Positions 2,690 through 55,817 of a DNA stretch of 64,000 nucleotides are shown here, in pieces. The notes under the pieces were generated by a model. The model saw nothing but the letters and a program-made list of their open reading frames with translations, had not been told where the DNA came from and ran no database searches. Position 1 is the stretch's first letter; every line of letters begins with the position of its first letter. The translations under genes were made by a program, and so were the position numbers. The stretch is from NCBI GenBank assembly GCA_037043015.1, contig CM073329.1:51448-115447 (forward strand), written 5' to 3'. The DNA is from Bryum argenteum (lineage: Eukaryota; Streptophyta; Bryopsida; Bryales; Bryaceae).

Positions 2690-2955
2690 TATTGAGATTG
2701 AAGGGAAAAGCTTTTCTTAGATGGTATTGGATAACTTCAGCCATGCCCAAAGGTTCTTGTTGATACAAGTAGGTGGGAAGCCTCCTCTACATACCTCCTA
2801 ACCATGTGGGATAACTCACCACTATTTTGTTGTGGTGTGTGACTTGACTACAAGCAACACCTAATGGAGTCTATGAACTAACTAAGTGCATAGTTCTACT
2901 CCTATAACTCCATTGTACACTATCTACATCAATCTTGGTACATGTTTCCTCAACA
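2690..2955 (-). repeat. LTR of the decayed RT-less Copia copy
   Basis: On the minus strand this runs TGTTGAGGAAACATG to CTTCAATCTCAATA. It closely matches the LTRs at 6842-7095 and 11091-11336, with short extra segments. It is the 3' LTR of the minus-strand copy and abuts integrase sequence of another element. Confidence 0.8.
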
Positions 2956-5720
2956 CTTGAACTTTGCTAAACTGGGCAAACACCAAAGACCTTTTTGTCA
3001 ATCAACATCAAAACTTTCCAAGCGCATTAGTTAGGACATCAAAGTCACAAAATAACTACCTCCCACTTGGAAATGGTCTTGAATTATCACAAATCAACAA
3101 GTGTCCAACTCCAATGAAATGCCACATTCGCTGACCTCATGTTGGGGAGGAAGAATATGGTTCTTCCACCAATACCTGTGGCTTGCGCTGAGTCCTTGTG
3201 GGGTATCTTGGCTCTTCTAAAGGCTTCCCGTGGCTCCTCCAGCCTGGTCCTTCTCTTCTCATTCAAATGCCCAAGAAGATTGATATCTCCTTCCGCTGAT
3301 TGTGGCATTGGAACACCACCTCCTCCTTGGGCTTCTCCAAATCTTCTTCATCTTCATCTCCCACTTCTTCAATGTCATCTCTTCACCTGAGCCCACACTG
3401 CCCTCACTGGTCCTCCATCTTCTCCCACTTCTACCTTTAAACCGTTTAAAATCAGCTTTTACAACCGTCTTCCAGTTCCTGTTAACTCTCTACACTTGAT
3501 AATGGCCTTGGGATCCACACGCATCACTCCCATCGGCCATCACCTCTCTCACAATACCCAAGTAAAACACACAACCGCCTTGGCATCCAACTTGGTCCTC
3601 TTGGCATTTGGAACCAAGGCATATGCATTGCAACCAAAAACACGCATATGGGACACATGGGGCCTCACTCCACTCAAGCCTCTTGAGGTGTCTTGCCACC
3701 AATGCTTGAGTGGGGCATGCGTGTTCCTCATCTCCATCGTTGATTGCTCACGGCCTCTCCTCCTCTTTCTCATACCTTGCTTGCAACAAAGGCGCTTAGA
3801 AACATAGTCTTCTTGCCATTCTCCACAATGGTGCGGTTTGCACGCTCCTTCTCACCATTTTGTTGAGGCGTGTAAAGCGCTGATGTGTGGTGCTCAATGC
3901 CATTGGCTTTGAAACAGTTCTCAAATGCCATTTTGCATCCTTGCTCCATTATCCGAGCCGCCACCTTCACCTTGCAATCAGATTGAGCACCCTTCTCCTT
4001 CCTTCCAAGTCTCAAAACGCCCAAACACCTCACTCTTGCACTTCAAGATATACACCATTGTTTGTCAGCAAATCATCTATAAAGGTGACAAAATACCTTG
4101 CTCAAACTTCAATGGAAGTGGTCTTCATTGGCCCGCAACGTCCGAATATATCGCAACTCCAATGGCTTCGTGGCCCTTGTTGCTCCATGCTTGGAGAAGG
4201 GTTGTTGATGCTCCAACAAGTTAGCTCCTTCCTCCATCTTGATGCACCTTGCGCCAAGCCAAGGAACTCCAATCGTGCTTGCAAGAAGAGAGGTCAGCCC
4301 CCTCACAATGTGTTGGAGGCCCTTCAAGCTCTTCAAATTCAAGTGCCCAAGCCTCCTATGCCAAAGCTCCAAAGCTCTTGACATGGCCTTCCTCACCCTC
4401 CTTTGAGTCCTTCACAAGCAAATGAACTCCCATTCACCTTGGGAGAATTTGAGTGATCACAATTTTCCCTCACAAGGGGCCATGATGCAATCCAAAGCCC
4501 ACTTGGTGACATCTGAACAACACACCCTACATTGTTGAATTGCACCTTCAAACCTCCCAAAGCCAATTTAACACTCTCACCCTCCAAAGCAAGTTGGCAT
4601 GCAACACACACATGGAGCACCTCACGGATGGTGATCCTCTTAAACTGCCTACCAAGCACTCAAATCAGCCCCTCCACATGCACCTCCCCTATGCCAAAAG
4701 CCTCCACCAAAGCCATTATCTCCACTCAAACAAGCTTCTTCCACTTGCTCCCACTTGAAATCAGGTGTGGAAGGCATCTCGAACTCCAAATCACTCAAAT
4801 GTTGTGAAGAGCCTCAATCCACAATCCAAGCAACATGTCCGCTCAAATCAGCCCTCCAGTGTGCACAAAAGCACTCCAAATCATCTCCATCCTCAACTTT
4901 TGAGGCTAAATGATCACTCTCCTTGCCTTCTAAGCTCACAATCCCTACAAACAAATGACGTGAGAGCCCTTAATGCAAATCAGCACCTACAATAGCATGT
5001 TTCTTGACTCAATTCAACTTGCAATTGCCTCCAAGCACCAAATCTTGAAAACACCTCCAAACCCTCTCCTTGGGGTTCATTCTCCTCCAAATGCTCCAAA
5101 TCAACTTCAATTGACTCAAATGGTTGCAAACAAACTCCAAATGGCTCTAAGTCCTTCATTGGCCTTGTTTCTCCAACATGCGGTGATGAGCCCTCAAACG
5201 ATGGTGGCAAGCTCTCCAACAATGTCATCCCCACATCTCCTTCCGTATTCAAACCTCAAGCAAGCCAACTCATGCGCCCATGCCTTTGATCTTCAATTGA
5301 CAAGAGATCCAACAAGTCATCCTCCTCTTGCATCTTGGTAGTGAAGAACCGCTTGAAATGAGAAATAGGATGTTTGAGAGACTCTTGGTCTTCATGGATG
5401 TTGCAAAGGTTGTCCACGCTTTCCATTGTGTTTTGCAATGGCGGATGTGTGCCCCTTTGCTCTTTGATCCCTACTTGCCTCCTATAGTCAACATTGGTCA
5501 ACGATGAAGCACTCAAATCAGCCTTCTTCTCCCGCCTCTCAACGCCTTCTTGGTCTTGAGATCCGCAATGCACAAAAGTCCTCACCCCATCAACCAAGCA
5601 TCCCACAAGTCCTTCTCCGCAAAAATCATCTCCATCTAGAACTTCCACATGCCAAAGTACACCATTGAACTCTCTCCAACATGCTAAAGGTCTCCTTCAC
5701 CTCAAAGCATGTTGAAGTAG
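2956..5720 (-). pseudogene. RT-less Copia gag-pro-int remnant (decayed copy)
   Basis: On the minus strand it is a broken homologue of the intact 8492-10939 reading frame, starting at the ATG near 5713 and ending near 3123. Recognisable pieces are a gag fragment (RFFTTKMQEEDDLLD), the pre-integrase zinc region (LWHRRLGHLNLKSLKGLQHIV) and integrase (NGIEHHTSALYTPQQNG, HVSHMRVFGC). It lacks RT and RNase H at the same junction as the intact copy: the conserved end (RKPLGDWW-like, then HILPP) is followed directly by the short 3' tail and the LTR. Several internal segments are replaced by leader-type sequence containing GGGCTGATTTGAG, for example near 4655-4690 and 4765-4860. Confidence 0.75.
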
Positions 5721-5947
5721 CTCCCACAAGTGTGATGGCAGCACCTAAAGAAGCAAACAAATGCTCAATAAGCCTCCCTAGAATCTCTAAAACAAAGGCA
5801 AAGTTTCTGAAGTTGCACCAACCAGATCTCATTCAAGCTCCTTGACAAGGAGATCTAAACCTTAAGGACCTCACAAACACCTCCCTCAAGTAGATCAGCT
5901 CACTAAGCCCCAAATCAGACCCTAATGTGGCAAAAAAAAAAAAACAC
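5721..5947 (-). repeat. Truncated leader of the decayed RT-less Copia copy
   Basis: Reverse complement matches 8250-8490 of the intact element, up to and including the T-run at 8255. The upstream part of the leader, its primer site and its 5' LTR are missing. The break lies at a homopolymer run and joins an LTR in the opposite orientation. Confidence 0.65.
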
Positions 5948-6263
5948 CAACTATTAGAGATAGGTTGCTCGTAGTTTAGAAGAGCAACTAATAGTTATAA
6001 GAGTATGTTCTAGTAAGGGATAGAAGCGAGGTGATAGTCCTTTAGAGTGTGTGAAGAGGGCTGGTCCTAAGAGCCTTAGAGAGAGAGAAGAGAGGACTTG
6101 GCCTCTCGGTTATCCCATATTGATTGTAGCACCATGTGCCTACCTATGGATACATAAGCAAGGGCTTCGAATGAGTATGTATCTCATTCAAGCATTCAAT
6201 GCTCTACCTTGTGTGTAAGCTTTGATGTTTGTATTCTCTCTCACCCTCTATTGAGCTTCAATA
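5948..6263 (+). repeat. Copia LTR, family distinct from the 6842 element
   Basis: This ends with TTGAGCTTCAATA directly before a half-tRNA primer site, so it is the 5' LTR of a plus-strand Copia. Its 3' half matches, inverted, 1109-1290. The left end is approximate (TATTAGAGATAGG), as I have no intact partner to fix it. Confidence 0.6.
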
Positions 6264-6277
6264 GGTTATGGGCCCAC
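6264..6277 (+). other. Copia primer binding site, half-tRNA-iMet type
   Basis: GGTTATGGGCCCAC immediately follows the LTR terminus. It is identical to the sites at 1095 (minus) and 7096. Confidence 0.75.
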
Positions 6278-6836
6278 TACTCTTGTAGTGAGGTTGAGTT
6301 AGAATACATTTGGAGGCTTGGAGAGGTCAAGGAGGTGTTGCACACACTTGGAGGGCTGATTTGCACTCCTTGGAGCTTTGGAGGTGCATTTGGAGGCATT
6401 TGGAGGTGTTTGCAACCATTTGGATGTGTTTGGAGGTAATTTGGAGGCATTTAACGTTGTTTTGCAACCATTTGGAGTTTTGGAGGTGCACTTGGAGGTG
6501 TGCAACCACTTGGAGGTGCTTGCAACCATTTGGAGCTTTGGAGGTGCACTTGGAGCCATTTGGAGGTGTTTGCAACCATTTAGAGGTGTTTCGAGGTGTT
6601 TGGAGGTGATTTGGAGCATTTGGAGGCAATTGAGCACACTTTTTGGAGGTGTTTGGAGGACTCTTGAAGGCATTGGAGTATTGTATGCTTCCCATGTCTT
6701 AGGTAGAGTGATACTAACACAAGGAGGTGCTGATTTGCATTGTGCTACCAAATCCTTTGTTTGGAGTGGTTTTGAGCTTTTGAGCTTTTGGAGTGCTAAT
6801 ATTGAGGGCTGAATCAACATTTGAAGTGCACTTGAA
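6278..6836 (+). repeat. Copia leader minisatellite (plus orientation)
   Basis: Degenerate short tandem repeats of TTTGGAGGTG and GCAACCATTTGGAG follow the primer site. This is the inverted partner of about 540-1094. The leader is interrupted at 6841 by the element at 6842-11336 and resumes at 11337-11400, up to the gap. Confidence 0.7.
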
Positions 6837-6841
6837 GTATT

Positions 6842-7095
6842 TGTTTTGAGATGTTGAAAACATGTACCTATTGATGTAGATAGTGTACATGGAGTTATAG
6901 GAGTAGAACTATGCACTTAGTTAGTTCATAGACTCCATTAGGTGTTGCTTGTAGTCAAAGGCAGCCCATAGTGGTGAGTTATCCCACATGGTTAGGAGGT
7001 ATGTAGAGGAGGCTTCCTACTACTTGTATTCAGCCCTTGCATGGCTGAAGTTATCCAATACCATCTAAGTAAAGCTTTTCCCTTCAATCTCAATA
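6842..7095 (+). repeat. 5' LTR of the RT-less Copia element
   Basis: It starts with TG directly after the TSD GTATT and ends CTCAATA before the primer site. The first ~20 bases carry extra sequence compared with the 3' LTR. The rest is almost identical. Confidence 0.85.
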
Positions 7096-7109
7096 GGTTA
7101 TGGGCCCAC
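7096..7109 (+). other. Primer binding site complementary to the initiator tRNA-Met anticodon arm
   Basis: GGTTATGGGCCCAC abuts the LTR. Plant initiator tRNA-Met contains GTGGGCCCATAACC in its anticodon stem-loop, so pairing would need a cleaved 5' half tRNA as primer, as described for Drosophila copia. No TGGTATCAGAGC site, the usual plant Copia form, is present. Confidence 0.78.
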
Positions 7110-7492
7110 GCACGTGTTGGTGCGCTTGAAGGAGAAATTCATTTCATTTGGAGAGGATCGTGGAGCTTGTGGGGCAAACCAGCCTTGTGTTCACTCTTGC
7201 ACCTTCAAACCATATGGTGTAAGTCCATTTCCAAGAGAGAAGTCTTGAGTGCATTTTCTTTTGGGGTTTTGTTGGCTGAAGTTGGTGTTTTTGAGTGCAC
7301 TTGAGTGTGAGGTTGTGTTTGGAAGAGATCAGACCTTGATAGGGCTGGTTGCATGCTCTTACATTGGGTTTGTGCTTAGAATTGCACATTGGGAGCCATT
7401 TAGGGCTGATTGTGCACTTGGGTGCATTAGGGATTGTATTTGAGGCATTTGCAATCTTGGGAGGCTGTTTTGAGTGCTTTGAGTGCTTTAGA

Positions 7493-7873
7493 GGGCTGAT
7501 TTGAAGCCCTTGTGAGTGAATGTGGCACATTTGTGCATTGATGAGTTGAACAAGGGCTGACTTGAGCTTTTGTGAGTAAATGTTGCACTTTGGTGCATTG
7601 GTGAGTTGAAGAAGGGCTGATTTGAGCTCTTGTGAGTGATTGTGGCACATTTGTGCATTGGTGAGTTGAAGAAGAGCTGATTTGAGCTCTTGTGAGTGAT
7701 TGTGGCACATTTGTGCATTGGTGAGTTGAAGAAGGGCTGATTTGAGATCTTGAGAGTGGATGTTGCACATTTGTGCATTTGTGAATGAGAGAAGGGCTGA
7801 TTTGTGCTCTTGTGAGTGAATCTTGCACATTTGTGCATTGGTGAGTTGAAGAGGGCTGATTTGAGCACTTGTG
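7493..7873 (+). repeat. 60-bp tandem repeat array in the Copia leader
   Basis: About six units with an exact 60-bp period, each beginning GGGCTGATTTGAGCTCTTGTG. The period is visible at 7554, 7614, 7674, 7734 and 7794. Related but looser repeats continue to about 8200. Because 60 is a multiple of 3, all frames stay open locally, and the minus-strand frames are a by-product. The array sits between the primer site and gag, where packaging or dimerisation signals would be expected. Confidence 0.9.
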
Positions 7874-8491
7874 AGTGATTGGAGCTAGTTTCTTGCATTT
7901 GTGATTGCAAGAGGGCAGATTGCACCTCATTGAGTGATTAGGGCAAGTTTGAGAGTCCATTAGGGCTGATTTGCATCATTTTGAGTGAGTGAAGCGAGTT
8001 TCTTGCATTTGTGGTTGCAAGAGGGCTGATTGCACTTCTTTGAGTGATTAGGACAAGTTTGAGTGTCCATTAGGGCTGATTTCAGCCCTTGTGAGCTTTG
8101 TGGAGTGATTGTGAGCCATTTTGAGGCACTTGCTCATTTGGATCCATTGTAAGGGCTGATTGGGAGTTCCTTAGCTCCTAGAGGTGTGGATTGCACTACA
8201 TTGTGAGTAAGTGGCTGAATTGAAGAAGTTCTTGCCTAGGTAGCCCATGTTGGTGTTTTTTTTTTTTTTAGCCACATTAGGGTCTGATTTGGGGCTTAGT
8301 GAGCTGATCTACTTGAGGGAGGTGTTTGTGAGGTCCTTAAGGTTTAGATCTCCTTGTGAGGAGCTTGCAAGGGCTGGTTGGTGCAACTTCAGCACTTTGC
8401 CTTTGTTTTAGAGATTCTAGGGAGGCTGAATTGAGTTTGTCAACTCCCCAAGCTTCTTTAGGTGCTGCCATCAAGTGGGAGCTACTTCAAC

Positions 8492-10939
8492 ATGGCTGCG
8501 AGTGAAGGAGATGGCGTGCGCATCATCGACAAGTTCAATGGTGTCAACTTTGGCATGTGGAAGTTCAAGATGGAGATGATTCTTGCGGAGAAGGACTTAT
8601 GGGATGTGGCTGATGGGGGTGAGGAGCCTCCAAGTGCTGATGCGGATCTCAAGACCAAGAAGGCGTTTGAGAGGAGGGAGAAGAAGGCTTTTGCTCTCAT
8701 TGTGACAAATCTTGCGGATCAGCAAATAGCACATATCCGCCATTGCAAAACACCAGCGGAAGCGTGGACAACCCTTTGCAACATCCATGAGACCAAGAGT
8801 CTCTCAAACATCCTATTTCTTCGGCGCCGCTTCTTCACTACCAAGATGCAAGAGGAGGATGACTTGTTGGATCATGTCAACAAGATCAAGGCATTGGCGC
8901 ATGAGTTGGCTTGCTTGGAGGGACCCGTCACGGAAGGAGATGTGGTCATGACATTGTTGGAGAGCTTGCCACCATCGTTTGAGTTCCTCATCACCGCTTT
9001 GGAAACAAGGCCAATGAAGGAGCTGACCTTGGAGTTTGTTACAGCCCGTTTGATGCACGAGGTCACCAAGCGCAAGGAGAATGAACCCCAAGGAGAGGGA
9101 TCAGCGCTTGTGTCAAGATTTGCCAAGGGAGGCAATAGCAAGGATTGCAAGGAGACAAGAACATGCTACAAGTGTGGCAAACTTGGCCACATTGCTCGGT
9201 TTTGTAGGGCCAGCGAAGCCCAAGGCAAGGAGAGTGCACATCAAGCCTCAAAAGTTGAGGATGGAGATGATTTCGCCTTTGCTACACATGGAGGAGGAGA
9301 GGAGGCGGACATGTTCACTTGGATTGTGGATTCCGGCGCCACACAACACATGACCAGCCATCGAGATGCCTTCCACACCTATCAACCGGTTACGGGGAAG
9401 AAGATTTACATGGGAGATAATGGCATGGTGGAGGCTATTGGCATAGGGGAGGTGCATGTGGAGGGGCAATACAAGGGGCAGCCCAAGAGGATCACCATCC
9501 GTGAGGTGCTCCATGTGCCCAAGTTGCATGCCAACTTGCTTTCGGTAAGCAAATTGGCTTTGGGAGGTTTGAAGGTACAATTCAACAATGTAGGGTGTGT
9601 TGTGAGGTCACCAAGTGGGCTTTGGATTGCATCAGCCCCTTGTGAGGGAAAATTGTATCTACTCAAATTCACCAAGGTGAATGGGAGTTCATTTGCTTGT
9701 GTGGCTCAAGGATCAGCCCATGAAGAGCTTGTGGAGCTTTGGCATAGGAGGCTTGGGCACTTGAATTTGAAGAGCTTGAAGGGCCTCCAACACATTGTGA
9801 AGGGGCTGGACCTCTCTTCTTGCAAGCACGATTGGAGTTCCTTGGCTTGCAAGGGGTGCATTGAGGGCAAGCAAGCAAGGCAGCCCTTCTCCAAGCATGG
9901 AGCAACAAGGGCTACGAAGCCATTGGAGTTGGTGCATTCGGACGTGTGCGGGCCAATGAAGACCACTTCCATTGGAGGAGCAAGGTATTTTGTCACCTTT
10001 ATAGATGATTTCTCACGCAAAATATGGGTGTATATGCTGAAGTGCAAGAGTGAGGTGTTTGGGCGTTTTGAGACTTGGAAGGCGCTTGTGGAGGCGCAAT
10101 CTGATTGCAAGGTGAAGGTGTTGCGGTCGGATAATGGAGGGGAGTATGTGTCCAAGGCATTTGAGAACTTCCTCAAAGCCAATGGCATTGAGCACCACAC
10201 ATCAGCGCCTTACACGCCTCAACAAAATGGTGTTGCGGAGCGTGCAAACCGCACCATTGTGGAGATGGCAAGGGCCATGATTCATGACCAAGGGCTCAAG
10301 TATGAGCTATGGGGAGAGGCCGTGAGCAATGCGGTGTACACAAGGAACCGCTGCCCCACTCAAGCATTGGTAAGCAAGACACCTCAAGAGGCTTGGAGTG
10401 GAGTGAGGCCCCATGTGTCTCATATGCGTGTTTTTGGTTGCATTGCGTATGCGTTGGTTCCAAATGCAAAGAGGACCAAGTTGGATGCCAAGGGCATCAA
10501 GTGTCTTTTGCTTGGGTATTGTGAGGGAACCAAGGCCTATAGGCTGATGCGTGTGGATACCAAGGCCATTATCAAGTGTAGAGATGTAACATTCTTGGAA
10601 GACGGAGGAGCTGATTTTAAGTGCTTGGAGGTGAGCCCAAGTGGGAGAAGTGGAGGACCAGCCCAAAGTGTGGGCTCAACTCCAAGAGATGACATTGAAG
10701 AAGTGGGAGATGAAGATGAAGAAGATTTGGAGAAGCCCAAGGAGGAGGTGGTGTTACCGCAGCGGAAGGAGATATCAAGTACTTGCTCACCCAAGGAGCA
10801 AGAGAAGGACCAGCCCATGGAGGAGCCACGGGAGCAGCCTTTAGAAGAGCCAAGATACCCCACAAGGACTCGCAAGCCACTTGGGGATTGGTGGAAGAAC
10901 CATATTCTTCCTCCCCAACATGAGGATCAGCGAATGTGA
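8492..10939 (+). CDS. Copia gag-protease-integrase polyprotein without RT
   Basis: The open frame encodes 815 aa from the ATG at 8492 (MAASEGDG). An in-frame ATG at 8462 is possible but less Copia-like. Domains in order, numbered from the upstream ATG: Copia gag (DKFNGVNFGMWKFKM to the RFFTTKMQEED region); CCHC knuckle from residue 235 (CYKCGKLGHIARFC); aspartic protease (WIVDSGATQHM, near 288); GAG-pre-integrase HHCC region (LWHRRLGHL to CKGCIEGK); integrase core with HSDVCGP, RSDNGGEY (near 556) and NGVAERANRT; then an acidic linker and YPTRTRKPLGDWW. RT would normally follow, but the frame ends after HILPPQHEDQRM. A remnant of the RNase H tail (ADVLTNALGK) is readable just downstream near 11000. 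The frame is free of stops. Confidence 0.9.
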   Translation: MAASEGDGVRIIDKFNGVNFGMWKFKMEMILAEKDLWDVADGGEEPPSADADLKTKKAFERREKKAFALIVTNLADQQIAHIRHCKTPAEAWTTLCNIHETKSLSNILFLRRRFFTTKMQEEDDLLDHVNKIKALAHELACLEGPVTEGDVVMTLLESLPPSFEFLITALETRPMKELTLEFVTARLMHEVTKRKENEPQGEGSALVSRFAKGGNSKDCKETRTCYKCGKLGHIARFCRASEAQGKESAHQASKVEDGDDFAFATHGGGEEADMFTWIVDSGATQHMTSHRDAFHTYQPVTGKKIYMGDNGMVEAIGIGEVHVEGQYKGQPKRITIREVLHVPKLHANLLSVSKLALGGLKVQFNNVGCVVRSPSGLWIASAPCEGKLYLLKFTKVNGSSFACVAQGSAHEELVELWHRRLGHLNLKSLKGLQHIVKGLDLSSCKHDWSSLACKGCIEGKQARQPFSKHGATRATKPLELVHSDVCGPMKTTSIGGARYFVTFIDDFSRKIWVYMLKCKSEVFGRFETWKALVEAQSDCKVKVLRSDNGGEYVSKAFENFLKANGIEHHTSAPYTPQQNGVAERANRTIVEMARAMIHDQGLKYELWGEAVSNAVYTRNRCPTQALVSKTPQEAWSGVRPHVSHMRVFGCIAYALVPNAKRTKLDAKGIKCLLLGYCEGTKAYRLMRVDTKAIIKCRDVTFLEDGGADFKCLEVSPSGRSGGPAQSVGSTPRDDIEEVGDEDEEDLEKPKEEVVLPQRKEISSTCSPKEQEKDQPMEEPREQPLEEPRYPTRTRKPLGDWWKNHILPPQHEDQRM

Positions 10940-11080
10940 CATTTCTTGAATCCCATGGACACTTGTGATTTGTGATGATTCAAGTGGGAGTTAGTTATGG
11001 TTGCTGATGTCCTAACTAATGCGATTGGAAAGTTTTGATGTTGATTGACAAAAAGGTCTTTGGTGCCTTTGCCCATTAGC

Positions 11081-11090
11081 AAAGTGGGAG
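11081..11090 (+). other. Polypurine tract of the RT-less Copia
   Basis: AAAGTGGGAG lies immediately 5' of the 3' LTR, the expected place for the plus-strand primer. Confidence 0.8.
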
Positions 11091-11336
11091 TGTTGAGGAA
11101 ACATGTACCTATTGATGTAGATAGTGTACATGGAGTTATAGGAGTAGAACTATGCACTTAGTTAGTTCATAGACTCCATTAGGTGTTGCTTGTAGTCAAA
11201 GGCAGCCCATAGTGGTGAGTTATCCCACATGGTTAGGAGGTATGTAGAGGAGGCTTCCTACTACTTGTATTCAGCCCTTGCATGGCTGAAGTTATCCACT
11301 ACCATCTAAGTAAAGCTTTTCCCTTCAATCTCAATA
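11091..11336 (+). repeat. 3' LTR of the RT-less Copia element
   Basis: It starts TGTTGAGGAAACATG and ends CTCAATA, followed by the TSD GTATT. The terminal inverted pair TGTTGAG/CTCAATA differs by one base from a perfect TG...CA end. Confidence 0.88.
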
Positions 11337-11400
11337 GTATTGAGGGCTGAATCTAGCATTTGGGGTGCATGTGTGCACACAAAGGGCTGATTTGATCCAT

Positions 11401-11500
11401 NNNNNNNNNNNNNNNNNNNNNNNNNNNNNNNNNNNNNNNNNNNNNNNNNNNNNNNNNNNNNNNNNNNNNNNNNNNNNNNNNNNNNNNNNNNNNNNNNNNN
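11401..11500. other. Assembly gap (100 N)
   Basis: This gap separates the interrupted Copia leader (11337-11400) from the CACTA remnant. The two sides are unrelated. Confidence 0.99.
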
Positions 11501-50849: not shown

Positions 50850-53129
50850 CATTGACAATTGTTGCCTGCGCATTGAAGTTGTCATCGTTGACTAGAAGGA
50901 CGGTATTATTTGGTAAAGCTAGTTGTACCCTGTATGGTCCGTGCCAGACGGATTCAAATTTAGTTTTGTGCAATTTAGGATCCCTTGGGCACCATAGTAC
51001 TTGATCTCCTTTATCAAAAAGACGATGAGGATGTGATCCTTGAAAATGTTTCGTAGTGATCCTTGAAAATGTTTTCGCGCGGCATCACGGATTTCCTCTA
51101 GTTTGTGGAGGTCCTCCATCCTGGCAGCTAACACTCGGTGAGGAGCATAGTCTTTTGGCTGTAATGTTTGGAAGGTTGGAGCTAGGTACTCCGTGGGCAA
51201 CAGGGGCTGCGTGCCATAGACCAACTCAAACGGGCTGGCTTGTGTTGCCGACTTAACGGCTACTCGGTAGGCCCATAGTGCTGCTGATAAGCAGTCATCC
51301 CAGTCACCATAGTTGGCTTGCGTGAATTTGCGTAGCATATTGATGATAGTCTTGTTAGTAGACTCGGCTTGTCCATTTCCTTGAAGGTAGTATACTGTAC
51401 TGGTCCGTTGTTTGATGAGATGCTTCTCCATCAGTTCCTCAATGACAGCGTTGACGAAGTGTGTTCCTTGATCGGAAACAATTTCTAACGGGCACCCAAA
51501 TCTCGTAGTAATGTTTTCATAAATGAAGGTTGCGGTGACAACAGCAGTGTTATTTCGGAGAGGTTTGGCTTCCACCCACTTTGTTGTATAATCGGTGGCA
51601 ACGAGTATGTATCTATAGCCTTGTTTTGTCACCGGACGAATGGGGCCAACAAAGTCTAAACCCCATCTCTAAAAGGGTCCTAGTGGGAGGATGGGCTTCA
51701 TTGGCACCCTGCCTTGGTATTGGAAATTTGTGGCGGCAATTTGGCACGCATGGCATCGTTTGATGTAATCAAATGTATCTTTGTGCAGCGTTGGCTACCA
51801 ATACCTTGTTGCCAGTATTTTCTTAATGGTGGTCTCCGGCCCCTGATGTCCCCCTGCTGGCCCATCATTTAAATGCGAAATGATGTCTGGTTGTTGACTA
51901 GTGGGTACGCAGAACCGAATCTCACCGTCCACTCCCTTACGGTATAGCCGCCCTTGGACGAGAGTGTATGGCAGCGTTGTTCTTACAAACTTGATTCTTT
52001 GGGTCTCTGTGGTTTCTTCGGGAAGCTTACCGCTAGCCAGGTATTCGATAATGTGCTGTCTCCAATCCTTGTCTTCTGTTGCCTCTGTTGCCTTTGTTGC
52101 ATGTATAGCCGCCGTTTGTATGTATGGTTCGTTAAAGGAGTCATCGATGCCTTCCTCAGTTGTATTTGTGTCGCGTGATAAATAGTCCGCTACAATGTGT
52201 CGTTTGCCCGGAATGTAGACAACCTCAAAATCGTACTCCATGAGAATCATAATCCACCTTGCTACTCTGCATGTAATCAATGGTTGATTTACCAGATAGG
52301 ACAAACTATGGTGATCTACCATGAACCGGAATTTATTTCCAAGTAAATAATGCCGAAATTTCTTTACTGCATAAATCATAGCCAGAGCTTCCCTCTCAGT
52401 GGTTGAGTAGTTTTTCTCTGCTTGATTAAGCAATCGGCTGGCGTAGGCAACAGGTTGATCATGTTTGTCGTCTACGTTTTGGGCTAACATGACCCCCACG
52501 GCGATCTGAGAGGCGTCGGTGTGTACGTGGAAAGGTTTTGTCCAATCGGGTGCCAACAGTATGGGTGCTCTTGAATAAGCCCGTTTAATTTTTTCCAAGG
52601 CGGCTTGTGCTTCAGTTGTCCAATCGCGAGGGTATGAATAGCCAGCGTGGTTCAGCTTGGTGATAGGAGCGGTAATATGAGCCAATTTTTCAATGTACAT
52701 CCTATTGAACTGTGATAAGCCCAATAGTCTTTGTACGCCTTTTTGGTCCTTGGGTGGGGTCATATCCATGATGTCTTGTATTTTTGCTGGATCGGGAAGT
52801 TTACCGTATTTGCATACGATATATCCCAGAATGACTCCGGCAAAAAATAAGAACATACATTTGTCGGCGTTGAGGCTGACTCCATTAGTTCGACAAGCTT
52901 GGAATATTTGTCTTAAGTGGTCAACGTGGTCCTTCATTCGGCCATATACCGTTCCGTCATCGAGGTAGATACGAAAAAATCGTTTTAGATAGGGACGGAA
53001 TATTAACTCCATAACCCTTTGGAATGTCATGCGTACGTTTTTGGCACCAAAGGGCATCCGTTCGAATTGGTAAGGTCTCCACTCTGTTGAGAACGCTGTC
53101 TTGTTCTTGTTTTGTTCAGCCATGGCCAC
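50850..53129 (-). pseudogene. Gypsy pol, second part: RT end, RNase H, integrase
   Basis: This continues the 55817 frame after the TAG at 53130-53132. RT motifs: FERMPFGAKN and the catalytic IYLDDGTVYG. RNase H: HVHTDASQIAVGVMLAQ, YSTTEREALAMIYAVKKFRHYL, VDHHSLSYL and ADYLSRD. Integrase: HHCC-type region near 51720-51850, WGLDFVGPI, and the catalytic D, D, E in [17 protein letters not shown] and [12 protein letters not shown] stops interrupt at 51795-51797 and 51669-51671. A 23-bp duplication (51033/51056) shifts the frame before the C-terminal segment, which is still readable to about 50855. Confidence 0.9.
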
Positions 53130-55817
53130 CTAGTAGTATCCAGAGAAACAGTCTAAAAACGAATACATTTCATGGCCTGCGACCTCGTCTATAATTTCTT
53201 CCATATGTGGCAGCGGGTAGTGGTCTTTTTTAGTGGCAGCATTGAGTTTCCGAAAATCCACGCAAATACGCAAGGCGCCGTTCTTTTTAGGGATGATAAC
53301 CATAGGTGACAACCAGGGCGCGGCATCGGCGGGGGATATGAATTTTGCACTCAACAATTTTTCCAGTTCAATTTTTACCTTGGCAGCATAGTTGGGGTTC
53401 ATGCGGTACCTCCGTTGTTGTACAGGCTGCGCGTTGGGCTTCAAATCTATGGTATGTTCGGCGATGTTTCTGGGAATTCCCTTGAGGTCTTCATGTGTCC
53501 AGGCAAATATATCTCGGTATTCCTGAAACAGCGCTATTGCCGCTTGTTTGATGCCCTTGGGAGCGTCAGCGTTGATTTTAACGTACTTTGGTTCCTCGGT
53601 GCTACCCAAGTTCACTAGTTCAACGTTGTCTGTGGCACCGTTGGTCCGTCCGGTGACAACTTGTTGCTCCAAGGCTTTTGTGGCTGGTGTCACATTTACC
53701 GTGATGTCTTCTTGGACTTCCTGTGTGAAGTGTTCAGGTATGTCTAATCCCTCTTCCTCTTGAACAATGCTGGCTAGTTGTATTTCGGCAACAGGGATTA
53801 AGGCGGGGTCGGCGTGGAAAACTAAAGCCTCTTGTTCTGGTGTCAATCCTTTGACCCAATTAGTTCCTGCTGTGAATCGGATCTGATCTACTTTGGCTTT
53901 AGTGACACACCTATCCACCGGAATGACGACTATTTTGTCATGATGGCGTAGACGAATCTGATTCCGTGCCCAATCATGCACAGCATTCATATCCCTTAAC
54001 CATGGTCGTTCTAATATCATAGGGAAGTTAGTGCTGTCTGGCATGTCAATGACGACAAAGGTGGCTGGTGTCGACACTCCGTGTGTGGTGATGGCGACAG
54101 TGGCCAGTATGCCTAATGGGGTTACTGGGGCGTCGTTGGCCATCCTTAATATGAACTGAGCCATCTTAGGCAGCGACAACCCTAACTGTCGCCTAAGGCT
54201 GTCACTCACAACGTTGACACCGGAGCCTCCATCCACTAAGACATTGGATAGCTTATGTTGTCCTAGCCGTAAGTGTATAACGGCAGCGTCGGGATCGATG
54301 GTTGTTACATTGGTATCGAGAGTCGTCAATGCTGTCGTAGTATTGGGCAATGCTGTCTGTTGCAAATACTTCTGTAATTCTGGACTAATTTTCAGTAGAC
54401 TGGTTAGTGTAATACTCACAGTAGTGTTGTCAAGTATCTGTTGCATGTTGATATCCGTGGTTGACTCCAGATCTGCTTGTATTTGTTTTCGAAGATTGTG
54501 CAATCGTTCCCAGTGTTGTTCCGGGAACGGTTTGCGGTGTTCCACCACATGATCTGGTGCCACGACTTTAGATCTTGTAGTTACGGCAGCGGTGCTAATT
54601 GTGGACACATTTGTTTCAGTCCCGTGTACTTCTGTCAACGTTACTCCCCCCCGTCTGTTTGGGTTGAGCCTCTGGAGGTCCGTAGTTGTCGTTGTTTGCT
54701 GATGTGTTTCAGAAGTGTGTCTATCATGTGCCCAACGTTGTTTTAGGATGGGGCACTGCCCTCGCCTATGGTGGAGAGATCCACACTCCCAACACCCGTC
54801 ACCCTTTCCTGGTTGAAAGGCGTCTACGTGGACTTCGTCGGGGTACAATGCTGCCGTAGTGGGGCGGGGTCGTCTGTTGTCATTTGTTGCGTTGTTGCCT
54901 GATGCGAACCAGCAACGGCCGTTGTGGGCCTTCCTACAAGTGGAACACAGAGTCAACGTGATGCGTGCATCTTTTCGTGAGGTTGGCAAGGGCAACAGCG
55001 GAACTTGTGTTTTGTTAAGCAATCCTAACTCCCTACTGATGTCATTGGCGGCCGTTAGAATATCCGGTAAGGTTTTTACACCCCTGATGACAATACCTTG
55101 CTGAATCCAAGGTAACAGACCCTTTTTGAACCATTCACATAAGTAGTCTTCGGTTGGCTTTTGATTGAGTTTGTCAGCCAATTGTTTGAAACGGTCGTAA
55201 AAGGTATCAACAGTTTCCCCTTTGTCCTGCGTGATGTTGCCTAAAGCACGAAGTATTTCGGAGGACGTCTTTAGTTTACGAAATTTCTGTAAGAAACTTC
55301 GTTCCATGTCCTCCCAAGTAGGATTGACATGTTCTGCTTCGAAGTCAATGTACCAATTGATGTGGTTTCCCTGTAAGGTGGTTCCGAAGAGATTTTGTAA
55401 GTCAGCAGTTGTGGAAACTCCATTGGTACGAGCAATGACTTTGAATCGTCTGATGTGCCAATCGGGGTCTGCAGCGTCGTCAAACACTGGGTATGGTATC
55501 TTTGGTAATTTGATTAACCTATCTCTTTCCCCTGAGTCCATCGAAGTGGCCACCGTAGGATTGATAGGTGGCACCGAAGTGGAGGCTGATGGCATCGCTG
55601 CGACTCCGGGGCTTGGCATTGTTGCCGAGGTAGCTGGACCATGCAGGCTTTCATACTCATGAGTAAGTATTTCAAGTCGTGCATTGGTAGCCTCATTTTT
55701 TGCAACTAGTTCTGTCATTTGTTGCTTCATCCATTGCAAGAATTCTTTGGTAGAATTTGGATCATCGTTTGGTGGTGCCGTTTCCGGCTCTTTGTCCTTC
55801 GGCTGTCGTGGCGCCAT
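53130..55817 (-). CDS. Gypsy gag-protease-RT (N-terminal part of the polyprotein)
   Basis: An 895-aa open frame. Gag: a hydrophobic core (NWYIDFEAEHVNPTWEDMER to FKKGLLPWIQQGI), then zinc knuckle CWECGSLHHRRGQC (CX2CX4HX4C). Retropepsin: VLVDGGSGVNVVSDSL, with the DGGS form common in plant Ty3 elements. RT start: PWLSPMVIIPKKNGALRICV, DFRKLNAATKKDHYPLP and YSFLDCFSGYY. It ends at a TAG that replaces a conserved glutamine position, and pol resumes in the same frame on the next codon. Confidence 0.9.
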   Translation of the reverse strand: MAPRQPKDKEPETAPPNDDPNSTKEFLQWMKQQMTELVAKNEATNARLEILTHEYESLHGPATSATMPSPGVAAMPSASTSVPPINPTVATSMDSGERDRLIKLPKIPYPVFDDAADPDWHIRRFKVIARTNGVSTTADLQNLFGTTLQGNHINWYIDFEAEHVNPTWEDMERSFLQKFRKLKTSSEILRALGNITQDKGETVDTFYDRFKQLADKLNQKPTEDYLCEWFKKGLLPWIQQGIVIRGVKTLPDILTAANDISRELGLLNKTQVPLLPLPTSRKDARITLTLCSTCRKAHNGRCWFASGNNATNDNRRPRPTTAALYPDEVHVDAFQPGKGDGCWECGSLHHRRGQCPILKQRWAHDRHTSETHQQTTTTTDLQRLNPNRRGGVTLTEVHGTETNVSTISTAAVTTRSKVVAPDHVVEHRKPFPEQHWERLHNLRKQIQADLESTTDINMQQILDNTTVSITLTSLLKISPELQKYLQQTALPNTTTALTTLDTNVTTIDPDAAVIHLRLGQHKLSNVLVDGGSGVNVVSDSLRRQLGLSLPKMAQFILRMANDAPVTPLGILATVAITTHGVSTPATFVVIDMPDSTNFPMILERPWLRDMNAVHDWARNQIRLRHHDKIVVIPVDRCVTKAKVDQIRFTAGTNWVKGLTPEQEALVFHADPALIPVAEIQLASIVQEEEGLDIPEHFTQEVQEDITVNVTPATKALEQQVVTGRTNGATDNVELVNLGSTEEPKYVKINADAPKGIKQAAIALFQEYRDIFAWTHEDLKGIPRNIAEHTIDLKPNAQPVQQRRYRMNPNYAAKVKIELEKLLSAKFISPADAAPWLSPMVIIPKKNGALRICVDFRKLNAATKKDHYPLPHMEEIIDEVAGHEMYSFLDCFSGYY

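Follow-up and report, generated by a model that had tools for sequence, protein, structure and literature searches.

The 64,000-nucleotide stretch of the Bryum argenteum genome analyzed here (the window; C9:51448-115447, on one of the 25 contigs that make up a 259-Mb genome) contains, at 6842-11336, a Copia element with long terminal repeats (LTRs), flanked by a GTATT target duplication, that encodes gag, protease and integrase without reverse transcriptase (RT) or RNase H. The first-pass annotation proposed that it belongs to a propagating, non-autonomous family, and this is supported by the present data: the RT-less copies share one deletion, and young copies are among them. That they propagate by means of RT supplied from outside is close to certain. 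We consider it likely that the family is semi-autonomous, with RT lost once and the descendants mobile via the RT of relatives, their own Gag, protease and integrase probably contributing.

The shared deletion and its copies

A genome search for further copies with the same junction, which the first-pass annotation had recommended, returned 41 places for a pattern allowing up to three mismatches and none for the reversed control pattern. In the junction alignment of 40 rows (38 fetched loci, the window element, and a minus-strand copy also in the window), one junction was common to 38, up to point changes, and the other two, L025 and the minus-strand copy, had the same flanks with altered letters at the join itself. 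The deletion is in frame, amounting to 1,416 nt or 472 codons relative to P0001, an RT-containing protein of 1,269 aa recovered by protein search with 93% identity over 743 aa. Deletion edges in RT-bearing copies read GGTGGCTATGGAAGAAG (L049) and CAAGCTATGGTTGCTG (L017 and others), and therefore the deletion used a 7-nt repeat, GCTATGG, which in the window element, at 10994-11000, reads GTTATGG. Directly after the junction there remains the RNase H tail VADVLTNA(I/L)GK, as had been recognized previously; in the window element this residual C-terminus, VADVLTNAIGKF with its stop (11000-11038, from sequence and alignment), lies ahead of the polypurine tract GCAAAGTGGGAG (11079-11090, from sequence comparison among copies).

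The coding frame at 8492-10939 (815 aa plus stop) had been described as ending where RT should begin. A stop-free gag-protease-integrase frame was borne out by a Pfam search, in which neither RVT_2 nor RNase H was found in the 815 aa, but the stop precedes the deletion point rather than coinciding with it. In the window copy, a 1-bp loss private to it closes the frame after HEDQ, and seven other copies read past HEDQ to a stop at 822-829 aa, created by changes ahead of the junction and still upstream of 10994-11000. Of 24 copies that could be followed from the start of the frame, 8 had it uninterrupted at 815-829 aa.

Twenty-eight copies had an LTR on both sides, and nine of these pairs were without substitution, the LTRs having been paired by position such that L036 surely, and L017 and L023 perhaps, pair LTRs of different elements, with L009 compared over 154 bases and the 3′ LTR end of L047 altered. 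A 5-bp target duplication was seen in 12 of the 28, including the window element (there from direct reading), with flanks that differ among the 12 copies. The deleted form itself has therefore transposed, repeatedly and recently. For the window element, the near-identical LTRs and clean target duplication first reported hold up: a single substitution separates the two LTRs over 248 aligned bases, besides small indels at their 5′ edge, and GTATT is identical at 6837-6841 and 11337-11341. The element was inserted into a member of another Copia family, of which the LTR end, primer site and leader occupy 6080-6836 on the plus strand and resume at 11337-11400 (by sequence comparison); the unoccupied sequence of this host element is present, inverted, near 492-556, with the 5′ side compared by eye.

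Several RT-less copies are nested inside other copies of the group, and L010 and L025 share a flank and look like a single insertion that was duplicated. In L013, L023 and L044 a polypurine tract precedes the 5′ LTR, as in tandem elements sharing an LTR. The copy at C2:4563305 is represented only by the piece U_L013 beside L013, and L042 stands outside the alignment and the selection counts. The minus-strand copy at 2690-5947 is an older RT-less member of the same family, without a 5′ LTR, with part of the leader missing and with a decayed frame (119 indels and 7 in-frame stops in the alignment), so that the earlier statement that it has the same junction is true of the flanks though not of the letters at the join.

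Structure, RT-bearing relatives and genomic zones

All parts of the window element are on the plus strand. The 5′ LTR (6842-7095) has a 10-nt extension (6842-6851) ahead of the usual TGTTGA start, and the 3′ LTR was placed at 11091-11336 by sequence comparison. The primer binding site at 7096-7109, GGTTATGGGCCCAC, we take to be the complement of the anticodon stem-loop of initiator tRNA-Met, a site of the half-tRNA type. Half tRNA-Met primer sites have been reported for Bryco, Osser and part of Gymco-II, as far as the available part of the source goes (PMC6317226), and the position of GGTTATGGGCCCAC after the LTR accords with Bryco, a moss Copia group, by a feature shared with Osser and part of Gymco-II. 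The leader (7110-8491) contains 60-bp direct repeats at 7445-7912, the number of which seems to vary from copy to copy. Pfam domains in the frame were Retrotran_gag_2 (8570-9082, E 3.3e-45), DUF4219, the zinc knuckle zf-CCHC (9158-9205), Pol_BBD (9320-9559, with the protease motif DSGA at residue 280 from alignment), the HHCC domain gag_pre-integrs (9650-9874, Pfam and alignment), the integrase core rve (9914-10219, with catalytic D484 and D547 within it and, by alignment, E583 directly past the Pfam stretch), rve_3, and the SH3-like C-terminal integrase domain SH3_retrovirus (10400-10603). The order gag, protease, integrase and the Copia-type domains place the element in Ty1/Copia, and relatives such as P0001 continue from integrase into RT. 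Terminal-repeat retrotransposons in miniature (TRIM), large retrotransposon derivatives (LARD) and gag-only elements have no pol, or gag only; the window element, with protease and integrase, is none of these. Elsewhere in the window, open reading frames at 50919-55817 on the minus strand look by eye like a further retroelement, with stretches reminiscent of gag, RT and integrase, and the closest named records to a Psb27 gene are from Ceratodon purpureus (74%) and then Sphagnum (65%), which marks the host as a moss.

Potential partners are numerous. A 35-mer from the RT start of the RT-bearing group occurred at 65 places in the genome (control, 0), RT at least 91% like that of P0001 was found in 29 of the 87 matches listed (2,139 candidates, 85 scored), and at least four of these 87 reached 95% likeness to P0001 or more within a frame of 1,230 aa or longer that has no stop. 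The nearby donor proposed by the first-pass annotation, at 1401-2689 on the minus strand adjoining the minus-strand copy, was rejected as a close source of RT: by Pfam and tblastn it is a degraded Copia with RT that belongs to a different and more distant family, 44-46% identical in tblastn pieces (an underestimate where frames shift), and RT-bearing relatives far closer than this occur in other parts of the genome. According to the available part of PMC9744471, an autonomous element and its non-autonomous partner are expected to agree in primer site and LTR ends, to have homologous LTRs and to be active at the same time. The first three were observed between the RT-less family and its RT-bearing relatives; as to the fourth, LTR ages were obtained for the RT-less copies. 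The primer site was identical in L049, the sole RT-bearing copy read there, the polypurine tract was the same in four of five RT-bearing copies, and the LTR ends were close variants. Five of six LTRs of the RT-bearing type were 92-94% like RT-less LTRs and the sixth approximately 85%, two of the six having been assigned by gag and leader only.

The two forms also occupy the same parts of the genome. Dense zones, defined from RT-bearing copies alone and covering 0.74% of the genome, held 47 of 60 RT-bearing copies on C1-C11 and 29 of the 39 RT-less copies there, compared with 0.29 RT-less copies expected; the window element is among the 10 outside. Such zones were found on C1 (28.9 Mb), C2 (4.5 Mb), C3 (30.4 Mb), C4 (28.0 Mb), C5 (19.1-19.3 Mb), C7 (0.3 and 1.4 Mb), C8 (9.0 Mb) and C10 (15.4 and 16.7 Mb), i.e. 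two each on C7 and C10, and by the rule applied none on C6, C9 or C11. In the accessible parts of PMC7466625 and PMC9946827, clusters of the Copia family RLC5 are taken as moss centromeres. The zones here resemble them and are centromere-like, and by this analogy may be centromeres.

These patterns are consistent with the following mechanism. One ancestral copy would have lost RT and RNase H through deletion at the 7-nt microhomology, and its descendants would have kept moving. Their RNA would be primed by the same half tRNA-Met as that of full-length relatives and copied in mixed particles by the RT-RNase H of a partner, through the shared primer site and polypurine tract and the near-identical LTR ends. 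Insertion could be by integrase from either source, the RT-less elements probably adding Gag, protease and integrase of their own, and would be directed to the same centromere-like zones as in the RT-bearing relatives. From sequence comparison we infer the use of partner RT, the mixed particles and the active part of the family's own proteins, and the family may, as originally suggested, make its own particle and integrase and borrow only RT. That the family's Gag, protease and integrase play such an active part is supported, not settled, and we judge it somewhat more probable than a passive role.

Selection, exchange and alternative explanations

Evidence for that contribution comes from patterns of substitution in the gag-integrase frame, with the minus-strand copy excluded. 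Among variants found in at least four copies of a 42-row set, which like the whole-frame tree includes the pieces U_L017 and U_L014a of unresolved class, there were 78 synonymous (S) and 39 replacement (N) changes and a single stop, where neutrality would give an N/S of 2.75, and singletons had an N/S of 2.20 with nine stops included. Pairwise dN/dS was 0.19 within RT-less clade A, 0.21 within clade B and 0.18 between them. Derived variants were counted in 28 of the 42 rows after 14 had been dropped (visible recombinants, short or indel-rich copies, and unresolved pieces), with S 79 and N 50 for those in at least four copies (P 4e-18); for those in at least two copies, N/S was 0.41 in gag, 0.61 in protease and 0.28 in the integrase C-terminal domain, and constraint is seen in each. 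When all variants in at least two copies of 41 rows were considered, N/S in the integrase core was 0.81 (P 0.0007). Catalytic residues were checked in 41 rows, as was similarity to an RT-bearing copy by block: the protease D, integrase D-D-E and zinc ligands were unchanged in the readable rows (27-33 of 41), with the exception of one copy with H to L in HHCC.

Several observations weigh against this reading. The P values treat sites as independent, and derived singletons, with N/S 1.66 compared with 2.70 for neutrality, are not fully neutral. Derived variants in at least two copies show weak constraint in the integrase core (S 9, N 11, N/S 1.22, P 0.047) and none in the linker (N/S 2.38) or in the HHCC domain (residues 387-470; S 1, N 8 for derived shared variants). 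The frame is broken in 16 of the 24 copies tested. The RT-bearing comparison set is small, at four gag rows, of which L049 alone was read into RT; the assignment of L012, L020 and L027 follows from the resemblance of their gag, leader and LTRs. There are also signs of exchange, in that L035, L033 and L017 contain blocks of unusual similarity to the RT-bearing copy, and dS between RT-less and RT-bearing copies is 0.30-0.40 in gag but 0.05-0.10 over HHCC and the integrase core, the lower values suggesting an old exchange of this stretch. A clean phylogenetic split of RT-less from RT-bearing copies had initial support of 100 over the whole frame and 100, 100, 76 and 84 by domain, and was weakened by L050, a probable RT-bearing copy with a gag that nests in RT-less clade B (support 67 for pairing with L033). 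The pools therefore appear to recombine, so that constraint imposed on RT-bearing elements can spill over into RT-less copies.

Among 40 gag matches scored in the genome (365 candidates), 24 were followed downstream, at the distance expected, by an RT-less junction, 14 were unpaired, and two on C4, 96% and 97% like the window and one of them L050, lay upstream of an RT-bearing 35-mer, the pairing being by coordinates only, with 36 of the 65 RT-bearing places entered and the place of L025 computed. In view of the L050 gag, the claim of selection was lowered and a test restricted to clade-private variants was added, with 10 clade A and 13 clade B RT-less copies and an expected replacement share of 0.70. 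Private variants shared or fixed within a clade numbered S 17 and N 12 (combined P 0.0013), comprising S/N of 8/8 shared in A (P 0.07), 6/4 shared in B (P 0.026) and 3/0 fixed in A, which favors constraint on few sites. The dN/dS check that the first-pass annotation had called for thus yields a synonymous excess overall, to which recombination with RT-bearing copies could contribute a part, and a weaker excess under the strict test.

An alternative explanation is that the family is a pure parasite, all proteins coming from outside, with gag to integrase carried as a passenger that looks conserved through youth and refreshing by template switching. Visible exchange between the pools, the predominance of broken frames and the unconstrained HHCC domain all accord with this. 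It would not account for the synonymous bias that persists in clade-private variants, albeit not for those shared in clade A alone, or for open frames in both clades, and we regard it as rather unlikely. Exchange does not speak for it alone: template switching needs both RNAs in one particle, and exchange therefore also fits a model in which the RT-bearing relatives act as helpers. Retention could instead be driven by the centromere, the LTR arrays serving centromere chromatin and coding capacity being secondary. This is in keeping with the strong clustering, as for RLC5 in other mosses (PMC7466625, PMC9946827, in the parts available), but codon-level constraint would be left unexplained and the zones are only centromere-like, such that we consider this explanation improbable. 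Assembly collapse, or a chance deletion without propagation, might be suspected from runs of exactly 100 N at 1301-1400 and 11401-11500, which look like scaffold joins or masked stretches and flank a piece of exactly 10,000 bases. With the junction at 41 places, and with 12 of 28 copies set between target duplications in distinct surroundings, a collapse at the junction is ruled out and the probability left to this alternative as a whole is negligible. The semi-autonomous family, moved by the RT of its relatives, therefore remains our preferred explanation.

A second RT-less group and comparison with known systems

A second RT-less Copia group was found in public protein sets (ENA and JGI), with 28 member sequences, represented here by P0028, P0036, P0047 and P0121. 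Its layout is gag, protease, integrase, with gag seen in all of the four except P0121, a shorter record; in P0028, P0047 and P0121 the sequence after integrase is joined in frame onto the end of RNase H and QSGSV, and P0036 stops earlier. The integrase core was 88-93% identical in five pairs compared, and in all four the catalytic D, D and E are replaced at the aligned positions by G, M and G, whereas RT-bearing P0012 and P0013, 67-69% identical to P0028, keep D-D-E. The group differs from the window family in its junction and its lost integrase triad, and P0028 is only 54% like the window protein. Tentatively, and with rather less confidence than for the window family alone, RT loss could be a repeated and stable way of life in centromere-like Copia clusters of mosses, in which selection would maintain RT-less elements because they supply Gag, protease and integrase and raise the ratio of shell to RT in shared particles, at least one separate lineage having also lost integrase catalysis with the long polyprotein kept.

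Published systems, as described in the available parts of the reports cited, match the window family in different respects. RLC5 and its truncated form tRLC5 in Physcomitrium patens, with RLC5 also in Sphagnum, are like it in having a moss host and full-length and truncated Copia elements in common tight clusters, and their insertions are polymorphic between P. patens accessions, indicating recent mobility (PMC7466625, PMC9946827). This likeness is one of published description rather than sequence comparison. A single cluster per chromosome is a mark of RLC5/tRLC5, and here two large contigs have two zones and some have none. In einkorn wheat, RLG_Quinta resembles it as a non-autonomous element with an intact coding part that shares primer site and LTR ends with a full-length centromeric partner, RLG_Cereba; RLG_Quinta, however, is Gypsy and encodes only GAG and a DUF, whereas the family here is Copia and keeps protease and integrase (PMC11302176). 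RLG_Sabrina_SA and RLG_WHAM, with RLG_Wilma, are semi-autonomous wheat elements with an intact GAG or GAG-protease frame and no RT, but they are Gypsy, have also lost integrase and are high in copy number (PMC9744471). BARE2 of barley is, similarly, a Copia without one function, presumably taken from a relative; in its case GAG is disrupted and the other genes are kept, the mirror image of the RT-less family (PMC9744471). No description of a gag-protease-integrase element without RT was recognized in the parts of the open-access literature searched. In its way of working the family here is comparable to the semi-autonomous wheat elements, and in its location to moss RLC5/tRLC5, yet it keeps integrase.

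Partly coding non-autonomous LTR elements mostly keep gag or gag-protease in the literature surveyed, as far as the texts were available, with BARE2 the mirror case. What makes the present case interesting is that integrase is kept, that sequence is exchanged with partners, and that there is a second group whose integrase is dead. Should the zones be centromeres, the findings would also bear on who builds moss centromeres. If RT loss is indeed repeated and stable, it would amount to a division of labor among Copia elements. An integrase-keeping family beside full-length relatives with which it exchanges sequence lets one ask which proteins such an element must make for itself and which may be borrowed.

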